Shown: positions 8,087-63,576 of the stretch, piece by piece
How positions within the stretch are numbered: the stretch's first letter is position 1
How the letters are laid out: every line of letters starts with the position of its first letter
Source of the DNA: Pseudomonas benzenivorans
Lineage (GTDB): Bacteria > Pseudomonadota > Gammaproteobacteria > Pseudomonadales > Pseudomonadaceae
Assembly: GCF_033547155.1 (NCBI RefSeq)
Contig: NZ_CP137892.1
Span: forward strand, 2,170,001-2,234,000
DNA length: 64,000 bases
Direction of reading: 5' to 3'
Position numbers and translations under genes: made by a program
Notes under the pieces: model-generated
Database searches by the model: none
The model's input: only the letters and a program-made list of their open reading frames with translations
Told to the model about the DNA's origin: nothing

Positions 8087-8368
8087 ATGCCGCGTCCTGC
8101 TTGGTCCTTGCATGCCTACCAACTGATCGAGCCGGACGAGCAGCTGGATCTGTTCGCCTGCCGAGAGGTGCGCCTGCATTTGGTCGCGCGCCAGCTCGAG
8201 CTGGGCGAGTTCGCCGACCGCACATTGTGCGGTGGGCTGTTGCCGGCGCAGCCGCGTTGGCGCGGGTTGGACAGACCGATGCTGCGCGATGCGCGCCTGT
8301 GCCCGGGATGCCGCAGCGCATTCGAGGCTCAGCGGCGTGGGGTGCGTCCTCCTTGGCCCGAGTGCTGA
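8087..8368 (+). CDS. Hypothetical protein with CxxC
   Basis: A 93-residue soluble protein, rich in Arg and Leu, with a C-terminal CPGC pair (residues about 72-75) plus three other cysteines. No signal peptide or membrane segment is seen. The CxxC suggests a possible small zinc or redox site but no family is recognised. It lies between tesA and the L,D-transpeptidase gene on the same strand. Confidence 0.6.
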   Translation: MPRPAWSLHAYQLIEPDEQLDLFACREVRLHLVARQLELGEFADRTLCGGLLPAQPRWRGLDRPMLRDARLCPGCRSAFEAQRRGVRPPWPEC

Positions 8369-8443
8369 GGGCTCCCGTAGCGCCAGGCGGCGGTGTACAA
8401 TCACGCAGTAATTTCGTCAACCATTCACGCCAAGGATTACCGG

Positions 8444-9400
8444 ATGTTGTCGCGCATCTCTGCCGTAACCCATTGCCTGCCACTTGCCACGCTGTTTGTC
8501 GCGAGCTCTGTCACAGCCCTGGAGTTGCCTCTGCCGCCGGCCGGGGAGGACATCGTCGGCCAGGTGCAGGTGGTCAAGGCCAAATACGAAGATACCTTTG
8601 CCGACCTTGGCGTAGCCAACGACCTGGGTTACTTGGAGATGATCGCCGCCAACCCGGGGGTGGATGCCTGGTTGCCCGGCGAGGGCACCGAGATCATCCT
8701 GCCCACGCGCTTCATTCTGCCGCCGGGGCCGCGCGAGGGAATTGTGATCAACCTCGCCGAATACCGCATGTACTACTTCCCTAAGGGGCAAAACGTCGTG
8801 CATACCTATCCCCTGGGGATAGGTCGTGAGGGGTGGAGTTCGCCCGTGACGGATGCCCGTATCACCGGCAAGACCCCGAATCCGGGGTGGACCCCGCCGA
8901 AGTCGATTCTTGAAGAGCATGCCGCCGATGGCGATCCGCTGCCGGCCTATGTGCCGCCCGGTCCCAACAACCCGCTGGGCCCGTACAAGATGTCGCTGTC
9001 GATACCGGGCTACCTGATCCACGGCACGAACAAGAAGTTCGGTATCGGCATGCGCGTCAGCCATGGCTGTTTCCGCATGCTCAACCATAACGTGTTGCAG
9101 CTCGCGGATATGGCGCCGGTCGGTACGCCGGTACGTATCGTCAACGAGCCGTACAAGTTCGGTCGCAGCAACGGCAAGGTGTATCTGGAGGCTCATGCCC
9201 CACTCGAAGACAGTGGTGCGGCATCGGTGGTCGACAAGCACTCTGCGGTCATCAATGCCTTGCTCAAGCGTGAAGAGCTGGGCGACCTGCGTCTGGACTG
9301 GGAAGTGGTGCGCGAGGTGGTCGCAGCAGAAGATGGCTTGCCGGTGGAGATCGCCGAGCCCGAAGTCGAGCTGGTCAGCAGCGCAGCTGCCGCGTTCTGA
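8444..9400 (+). CDS. L,D-transpeptidase (YkuD domain) with LysM-like N terminus
   Basis: Periplasmic peptidoglycan cross-linking enzyme of 318 aa. The first 25 or so residues form a signal peptide (MLSRISAVTHCLPLATLFVA). A LysM-like region (about residues 35-85) is followed by the YkuD catalytic domain. This ends in IHGTN and SHGCFRM, with catalytic Cys in SHGC; the residue after Cys is Phe, where Ile or Val is commoner. The ATG at 8444 has AAGGA upstream, better than the upstream GTG/ATG frame. oprI lies immediately downstream in the opposite orientation, which suggests that this enzyme attaches OprI to peptidoglycan as the Braun-lipoprotein-type enzymes do. A terminator follows at 9420. Confidence 0.93.
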   Translation: MLSRISAVTHCLPLATLFVASSVTALELPLPPAGEDIVGQVQVVKAKYEDTFADLGVANDLGYLEMIAANPGVDAWLPGEGTEIILPTRFILPPGPREGIVINLAEYRMYYFPKGQNVVHTYPLGIGREGWSSPVTDARITGKTPNPGWTPPKSILEEHAADGDPLPAYVPPGPNNPLGPYKMSLSIPGYLIHGTNKKFGIGMRVSHGCFRMLNHNVLQLADMAPVGTPVRIVNEPYKFGRSNGKVYLEAHAPLEDSGAASVVDKHSAVINALLKREELGDLRLDWEVVREVVAAEDGLPVEIAEPEVELVSSAAAAF

Positions 9401-9419
9401 AGTTGTGACGCTGAACGAA

Positions 9420-61898: not shown

Positions 61899-62279
61899 AT
61901 GATCGAACGCCTGGATCACCTAGTGCTGACCGTTGCCGATGTCGGCGCCACCGTGGCGTTCTACGAGCGCGTACTCGGCATGCGCCATGAACTGTTCGGC
62001 AGCGGTCGCAGTTCTCTGGTGTTCGGCAAGCAGAAACTCAACCTGCATCAGGCAGGTCGCGAATTCGAGCCCAAGGCCGCGCGCCCGACACCGGGGGCCA
62101 TCGATTTGTGCCTGATCAGCGACTGGCCCCTCGAGCGAATACTCAGCCATCTGGCTGAGCAAGGGGTCGAGATAGAAGAGGGGCCGGTCCTGCGAACAGG
62201 AGCACTCGGACCAATCGAATCGGTGTATTTCCGTGACCCGGACGGGAATCTGATAGAGATCGGTCGGTATTTGCGCTGA
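61899..62279 (+). CDS. VOC-family protein, GLOD5-like
   Basis: A 126-residue VOC protein. LDHLVLTVADVGATVAFYER, then FGKQKLNLHQAGREFEPKAA and VYFRDPDGNLIEIGRY give the two modules with candidate metal residues His and Glu. The FEPKAA segment and TPGAIDLCLI resemble the human GLOD5 group. Reaction unknown. It starts 2 bp after the TRIC stop and ends just before the dif region. Confidence 0.9.
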   Translation: MIERLDHLVLTVADVGATVAFYERVLGMRHELFGSGRSSLVFGKQKLNLHQAGREFEPKAARPTPGAIDLCLISDWPLERILSHLAEQGVEIEEGPVLRTGALGPIESVYFRDPDGNLIEIGRYLR

Positions 62280-62306
62280 GCCTTCATCACTGTCGGCATA
62301 ACCAAC

Positions 62307-62334
62307 ATTTAACATAATATACATTATGCGAAGT
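62307..62334 (-). other. dif: Chromosomal dif site (XerC/XerD dimer-resolution site)
   Basis: On the minus strand: XerC arm ACTTCGCATAA (62334-62324), central spacer TGTATA (62323-62318), XerD arm TTATGTTAAAT (62317-62307). Spacer and XerD arm equal E. coli dif, and the XerC arm differs only at positions 1, 2 and 4 (25 of 28 overall). It lies in a 172-bp intergenic gap and is the only site of this kind I saw. It marks the replication terminus. Confidence 0.93.
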
Positions 62335-62451
62335 ATTGGGTCGGTGCCACGGGGCGAGGGTGCTTGAATGCTGCCGCCGAACATTGCAGGCTGAACCAAG
62401 GGAATTCGATCAGAGGTTTAAGGGACGCCCGTGATCTCTCGGGAGGTTGCC

Positions 62452-63576
62452 ATGCCTCACTGCAATCCGTGCATCACCCTGTTTCTCGGCGGCGACCTGA
62501 TGTGCGCACGGGGCATCGATCAGATACTGCCTTACCCTGGTGACCCTCGTCTCCATGAGCCTTACGTCAAATGCGCCGGTGACTATGTGCAGCTGGCTGA
62601 ACGGCGCAATGGGCCTATTCCCTGGCCGGTGGATTTCGCTTATGCCTGGGGCGTTGCCCTGGATGAATTCAGGCGTCGTCGCCCGGACCTTCGCCTGGTC
62701 AATCTGGAAACCGCAGTAACCCGTCGCGGGCGGCCACAACCCAAGGGCATCAACTACCGGATGAATCCCGCCAACCTGCCATTGCTGGAGGTGGCCGGGA
62801 TCGACTGCTGTGCGCTGGCCAATAATCATGTGCTGGATTGGGGCGAGACCGGCCTGATCGACACGCTGCATGGCCTGAACGCCCATGGCTTGAGCCATGC
62901 CGGGGCCGGACTCGACCAGGAGGACGCCACGGCGCCGGCCATCCTGCCCCTGCCTGGTGGCCGGCTACTACTCTTTGCCTTCGCCACCGAGGACAGCGGC
63001 GTCCCGGCAGACTGGGCGGCCGCACCGCAGCGCGCGGGTGTCGCCCGCCTGGCTGATCTCTCGCGACAGAGCCTGGAGCAGATTGCGCAGCACATACAGA
63101 CGGCCAAGCAGCCTGGGGACCGGGTGGTGGCGTCTATTCATTGGGGGGGCAACTGGGGCTTCGCCATCCCCGAGGAACAGATCGACTTCGCCCATGGCCT
63201 GATCGAAGAAGCCGGCGTGGACCTGCTGCACGGCCACTCCTCGCACCATATCAAAGCCATCGAGGTCTACCGGCAGCATCTGATCCTCTATGGCTGCGGC
63301 GACCTGCTGGACGACTACGAGGGCATCGATGGTTATGCCGCCTATCGTGGCGATCTGGGGCTGCTGTATTTCGCCGATCTGGACGCCCATGGTCGCCTGT
63401 CGTCCCTGGAGTTGCAGCCCACGCGTCAGCAACGTCTGAGCATTCAGAGAGCCGAAGGCGCGGACCGGCAATGGCTGCAGCATACCCTCAGCCGTGAGTG
63501 CGGACGGTTCGGCTGTACCGTCCGCCCGACCAGCGAGAACGGCTTCGCCCTGGTCTGGCCCGACTCACCACACTAG
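62452..63576 (+). CDS. CapA/PgsA-family metallophosphatase-like protein
   Basis: A 374-residue protein of the bacterial capsule-synthesis CapA family, related to calcineurin-like phosphoesterases: ITLFLGGDLMCARGIDQIL (metal Asp), VNLETAVTRRG, CALANNHVLDWGETGL (N-H-x-L-D), SIHWGGNWGF and LLHGHSSHHIKAIEVYR. CapA proteins act in poly-gamma-glutamate export, but no cap/pgs ligase genes are here and no signal peptide is evident. The ATG at 62452 follows GGGAGG; a GTG at 62431 is unlikely. It is the first gene beyond dif. Confidence 0.88.
   Translation: MPHCNPCITLFLGGDLMCARGIDQILPYPGDPRLHEPYVKCAGDYVQLAERRNGPIPWPVDFAYAWGVALDEFRRRRPDLRLVNLETAVTRRGRPQPKGINYRMNPANLPLLEVAGIDCCALANNHVLDWGETGLIDTLHGLNAHGLSHAGAGLDQEDATAPAILPLPGGRLLLFAFATEDSGVPADWAAAPQRAGVARLADLSRQSLEQIAQHIQTAKQPGDRVVASIHWGGNWGFAIPEEQIDFAHGLIEEAGVDLLHGHSSHHIKAIEVYRQHLILYGCGDLLDDYEGIDGYAAYRGDLGLLYFADLDAHGRLSSLELQPTRQQRLSIQRAEGADRQWLQHTLSRECGRFGCTVRPTSENGFALVWPDSPH

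Follow-up and report, generated by a model that had tools for sequence, protein, structure and literature searches.

A single dif site of the Pseudomonas type at the replication terminus, with recombinase genes linked to dif elsewhere in the genus

The window analysed here, a stretch of 64,000 nucleotides, contains a 28-bp sequence that is almost certainly the one dif site on a chromosome of the Pseudomonas type. At dif, which lies where replication ends, a bacterium unlinks the two copies of its chromosome. The site would mark where dimers are resolved and, to a close approximation, where replication of this chromosome terminates, which gives a reference point for reading the strand bias, gene order and skew of the window. 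The site is sound but ordinary, the same 28 bases being already in print for another bacterium (T. denitrificans; Table 1 of PMC2731167). What is possibly a new lead comes from elsewhere in the genus, where two families of tyrosine recombinase are linked to dif.

The plus strand of the window at 62307-62334 reads ATTTAACATAATATACATTATGCGAAGT (28 bases, exact position confirmed). Read on the minus strand, it runs from the XerC arm through the spacer to the XerD arm (Table 1) in the 11-6-11 bp architecture of dif, with conservation in the XerD arm and the inner part of the XerC arm. An earlier note on this DNA had called the site a near-perfect dif, and the wording is fair. The XerD arm and spacer, there described as intact, are the same as in E. 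coli K12 dif, and comparison with the sequence in PMC2731167 returns the same count of eight matches in the 11 positions of the XerC arm. Overall, E. coli K12 dif has the same architecture and shares 25 of the 28 bases, the differences lying at positions 1, 2 and 4 in the outer XerC arm (PMC2731167). The P. aeruginosa PAO1 site, GATTCGCATAATGTATATTATGTTAAAT, is identical at 26 of 28 positions, among them the whole XerD arm, the spacer and the inner XerC arm; it departs only at positions 1 and 2 in the outer XerC arm, which are AC here and GA in PAO1 (PMC2731167). The likeness to P. aeruginosa that the earlier note had seen in the TTCG start is thus borne out by the published sequence. All 28 bases are the same in the dif listed for T. 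denitrificans, which is a beta-proteobacterium (Table 1 of PMC2731167).

As the earlier note also held, the site is intergenic, and the PAO1 site is likewise intergenic and near the terminus (PMC2731167). It falls between the end of a VOC-family gene and the start of a PGA_cap-domain gene, whichever of the two possible start codons of the latter, GTG or ATG, is used (Table 1). An antisense frame at 61920-62399 spans dif; it is a mechanically listed frame without other support.

Table 1. Coordinates of the dif site, its parts and its neighbours in the window, and of the R2 recombinase loci near dif elsewhere in the genus
Feature	Position	Strand	Basis or remark
dif site, 28 bp, XerC arm to XerD arm	62307..62334	-	Sequence; genome, genus and published-site comparisons
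XerD arm, TTATGTTAAAT	62307..62317	-	Same as the PAO1 and E. coli arms in PMC2731167
Central hexanucleotide (spacer), TGTATA	62318..62323	-	Sequence and the table of PMC2731167
XerC arm, ACTTCGCATAA	62324..62334	-	Outer four bases are the most variable part across 29 relatives
VOC/glyoxalase-family gene, XerD-side neighbour	61899..62279	+	Pfam PF00903
PGA_cap-domain gene, XerC-side neighbour	62452..63576	+	Pfam PF09587; ATG start 62452, possible GTG start 62431
R2 loci near dif	L219:10666-11970, L220:8672-9970, L221:7500-8804, L222:6238-7515 and 8130-9410
R2 loci near dif, continued	L223:7693-8955, L224:7560-8846, L225:6298-7605, L226:6801-8081

The genome is a single contig of 4,500,624 bp, and a dif pattern with 24 specified positions, searched with up to three mismatches, matches it exactly once; the reversed control pattern has no match under the same conditions. 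The 17-mer formed by the XerD arm and spacer also has a single genome match at three mismatches or fewer, and the full 28-mer matches once in the window at that threshold. At these thresholds the site is single in the window, as the earlier note had it, and in the genome, and the genome-wide search suggested there reveals no better or second dif elsewhere. One site per chromosome is what is expected of a proteobacterial dif. In the genus, 116 of 119 genomes carry exactly one match, and three (G090, G093 and G096) have none at three mismatches or fewer. This set includes the 36 genus genomes of a smaller survey of 57. There a match is present in 50 genomes: in all 36 of the genus, once per genome, and in 14 of the 21 that belong to other families of the order.

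The skew data comprise a 464-kb stretch, namely the window with 200 kb on each side, and twenty 20-kb samples from elsewhere in the chromosome. Over the 464 kb, the cumulative G minus C reaches its maximum 142 bp from the start of dif, and 10-kb bins are positive in 24 of 26 cases to the left of dif and negative in 18 of 20 to the right. The ten samples at 0-1.82 Mb are all G-rich. Those at 2.6-4.5 Mb are all C-rich (10/10), with three near zero (-0.0046, -0.0044 and -0.0015), the last of which (4.48-4.50 Mb) is located beyond dnaA, in a part where the skew should be positive. A least-squares two-level fit in 500-bp bins places the best break at -11.3 kb, with +0.2 kb ranking fourth, so that the skew switch is located less exactly than the cumulative maximum would have it. 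When bootstrapped, the skew maximum scatters about a true break by -6.2 to +6.5 kb (5-95%), and the 10 kb immediately left of dif are almost neutral (0.0045). With dnaA (4470931-4472385) standing in for oriC, the antipode is at 2,221,346, and dif lies 11.0 kb from it (0.24%). The cumulative-skew check proposed in the earlier note thus finds a switch near the locus, though the two-level fit prefers a break slightly to the left, and the assignment of the region to the terminus stands. For comparison, the published sites of PAO1 and T. denitrificans are listed 14,962 and 9,321 bp from their skew maxima (PMC2731167), against 142 bp within the 464-kb stretch here. The dif of P. aeruginosa was found to lie opposite oriC, and a region of at least 800 kb around it is stated to show an extensive colocalisation step after replication (PMC3642087).

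The proteins expected to act at dif are encoded. A profile search of the genome identifies XerD (383.1 bits, cut-off 329.6) and XerC (351.1 bits, cut-off 335.15), as well as one FtsK_gamma domain (96.7 bits, cut-off 30.6) located 84 kb to the right of dif. The scanned FtsK sequence is a C-terminal part of 564 aa and scores below the cut-off for full-length FtsK. The frames of XerC, XerD and this C-terminal part are all open. The motif GGGNAGGG, described as a KOPS-like motif of V. cholerae that is used similarly to that of E. coli (PMC5357621), is oriented toward dif in 41 of 47 occurrences on the left (41:6) and in 25 of 32 on the right (7:25), a polarity that ranks only fifth among 42 permuted G6-A1-N1 motifs and hence is not separable here from the general G-skew. 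The interval in which the motif best switches direction, -2.5 to +5.5 kb, includes dif. The polarity agrees with KOPS; it does not prove KOPS.

The site is thus read as the dif that belongs to the chromosome itself, almost certainly so, and by inference it would work as in other bacteria that use XerCD, with binding, cleavage, FtsK activation and dimer resolution predicted from known Xer systems. Recombination between sister chromosomes would leave a circular dimer, and FtsK at the septum would be steered along converging KOPS-like motifs to dif. There it would activate XerD, and strand exchange by XerC and XerD between the two dif copies would yield monomers.

One alternative is that the 28-mer is not the chromosome's own dif but serves a Xer-using element (IMEX), such as a filamentous phage, that has integrated here, either as its attachment site or at one of its ends. 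Such phages do carry dif-like attachment sites for XerCD, and the identical 28-mer is found in eight viral contigs (L162-L169), of which the three examined are filamentous-phage-like (L163 with G2P and Zot, L169 with Rep_trans and Zot, L166 with Zot). An integrated element should leave a second dif-like site, however, and none is present in the genome at three mismatches or fewer; the nearest genes are the VOC and PGA_cap genes rather than phage genes, and the position at the skew switch also speaks against such an element. A second dif or an integrated element at the site is rejected on the genome search at that threshold and on the neighbouring genes, and we consider the phage reading extremely improbable. 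A near-match that arose by chance in AT-rich intergenic sequence can be all but dismissed, since none of 100 dinucleotide shuffles of the window contains a match to the 28-mer at three mismatches or fewer and the reversed control is absent from each of the 119 genus genomes as well as from this one, whereas the dif pattern itself recurs once per genome throughout nearly all of the genus.

It is also very unlikely that the site is a decayed dif, in which the sequence has been kept, its use lost and dimer resolution moved elsewhere. The difference from PAO1 at the two outermost bases of the XerC arm would fit some decay, although the outer bases vary anyway among the 29 relatives whose loci were read. 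Against decay, all core positions are intact, the frames of XerC, XerD and the C-terminal part of FtsK are open, and at the thresholds applied the genome contains no other dif-like site. The preferred reading remains that of a single, intact chromosomal dif.

Several observations in phages and relatives accompany the site. The genes of L163, L166 and L169 fit phages that integrate at dif through XerCD. Among phage records, a 43-base query returns four at an E-value of 0.01, three of them aligning only over dif (query 1-28 or 3-28, 96%) and the fourth matching query 3-36 at 88.6%; among plasmid records, nothing similar to a 2,401-base query is found at the 'near' setting. In G042, the one genome of the smaller survey with two matches, which belongs to another family, the dif-like sites lie 12.9 kb apart in the same orientation (L215; G042:C81:16985 and 29854). 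One of the pair has a more degenerate XerC arm, and they possibly reflect an element integrated at dif.

Within the genus, an XerC-arm variant, ATTACACG, replaces ATTATGCG (searched strand) in seven of 36 genomes (G034, G019, G033, G016, G002, G011 and G029). Coevolution of XerC with this arm was considered and rejected: in a comparison covering 30 of the 36 genomes, no XerC column tells six of the seven apart from 23 others. The remaining one, G034, was left out because it has no XerC match over the cut-off. In this single-contig genome XerC appears only as two overlapping pieces (G034:C1:746541-747388), a possible frameshift or sequencing error. A conserved gene neighbourhood of dif was likewise rejected, as none of 80 loci around PGA_cap relatives has a dif-like site (the best 80 of 191 relatives, 48 of which, L082-L129, are named Pseudomonas, Azotobacter or Stutzerimonas; up to four mismatches in 24, flanks of 5 kb or less).

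The XerC check of 30 genomes also brought to notice a conserved tyrosine recombinase of 304 aa, here called R1 (for example L200:7053-7964), which scores 116.1 bits against the XerC profile, for which the cut-off is 335.15. At an E-value of 1e-70, R1 is single-copy in 81 of 119 genus genomes and absent from the window's genome. Its distance from dif, taken from the gene midpoint, could be measured in the 65 genomes where both share a contig, 16 having been dropped for lying on another contig or having no dif match. The median is 48 kb, with 33 genomes under 50 kb, 46 under 100 kb and 62 under 250 kb; the exceptions are at 382, 448 and 1,603 kb. R1 lies on the XerC-arm side of dif in 59 of the 65 genomes and is transcribed toward dif in all of them. 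In draft genomes the shared-contig rule biases toward short distances, a bias absent from the 24 single-contig genomes, where the median is 52 kb, 22 genes lie within 225 kb and 21 are on the XerC-arm side. The only control gene was galU, with the best-scoring copy used if there were two, and the genomes are not independent. In the same 24 genomes galU has a median distance of 303 kb and is farther from dif than R1 in every one; its transcription runs toward dif in all 24, and in 12 it lies on the XerC side. Because orientation toward dif is shared with galU, it may simply be the leading-strand direction. What stands out for R1 is its closeness and constant side. In G129, R1 sits about 60 bp from dif. 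On inspection by eye, the consensus of aligned R1 flanks from 26 genomes shows no evident conserved inverted repeat or target site.

A second, divergent family of tyrosine recombinases of about 434 aa, R2, occurs, at the same E-value of 1e-70, in 13 of the 119 genus genomes and is absent from the window's genome. In eight of the 13 carriers R2 is 0.4-3.2 kb from dif (Table 1), in all eight transcribed away from it. Of the remaining carriers, G023 has R2 at 57 kb, G126, G084 and G059 have it on another contig, and G090 has no dif match. A second large frame lies between R2 and dif in three of the eight near-dif genomes. G022 has two tandem R2 copies, and G032 and G085 have an extra frame of about 395 aa between R2 and dif. 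Pfam detects no domain in R2 relatives or companions (8/8 proteins scanned); NCBIfam and PHROGs place R2 among tyrosine recombinases and integrases. Across the eight loci (18-19 kb each) there is no dif-like site besides dif at up to eight mismatches in 28, dif itself in L226 also matching on the other strand at this limit. Looser half-site limits give a few weak, scattered matches in L220, L221, L222 and L224, and L224 has a 16-base repeat near dif; we read these matches and the repeat as chance.

Among the recombinase relatives listed (120 of 745 and 120 of 644 matches), the named ones are labelled integrases or Xer-type recombinases, and the matches come from Pseudomonas, close genera or unassigned metagenomes. 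In the titles and abstract openings of a limited, openly licensed literature, we found no additional tyrosine recombinase gene beside a Pseudomonas dif. It seems unlikely that R1 or R2 acts on dif, or on a terminus site close by, be it as a third recombinase or as a dif-targeted element. If it were so, the dif region of the genus would host more than XerCD, and the genome of the window, having neither R1 nor R2 at the cut-off used, would represent the bare state.

Elsewhere in the window, the minus strand at 9827-9972 matches the Pseudomonas sRNA P14 family with 67.7 bits, against a gathering score of 45.
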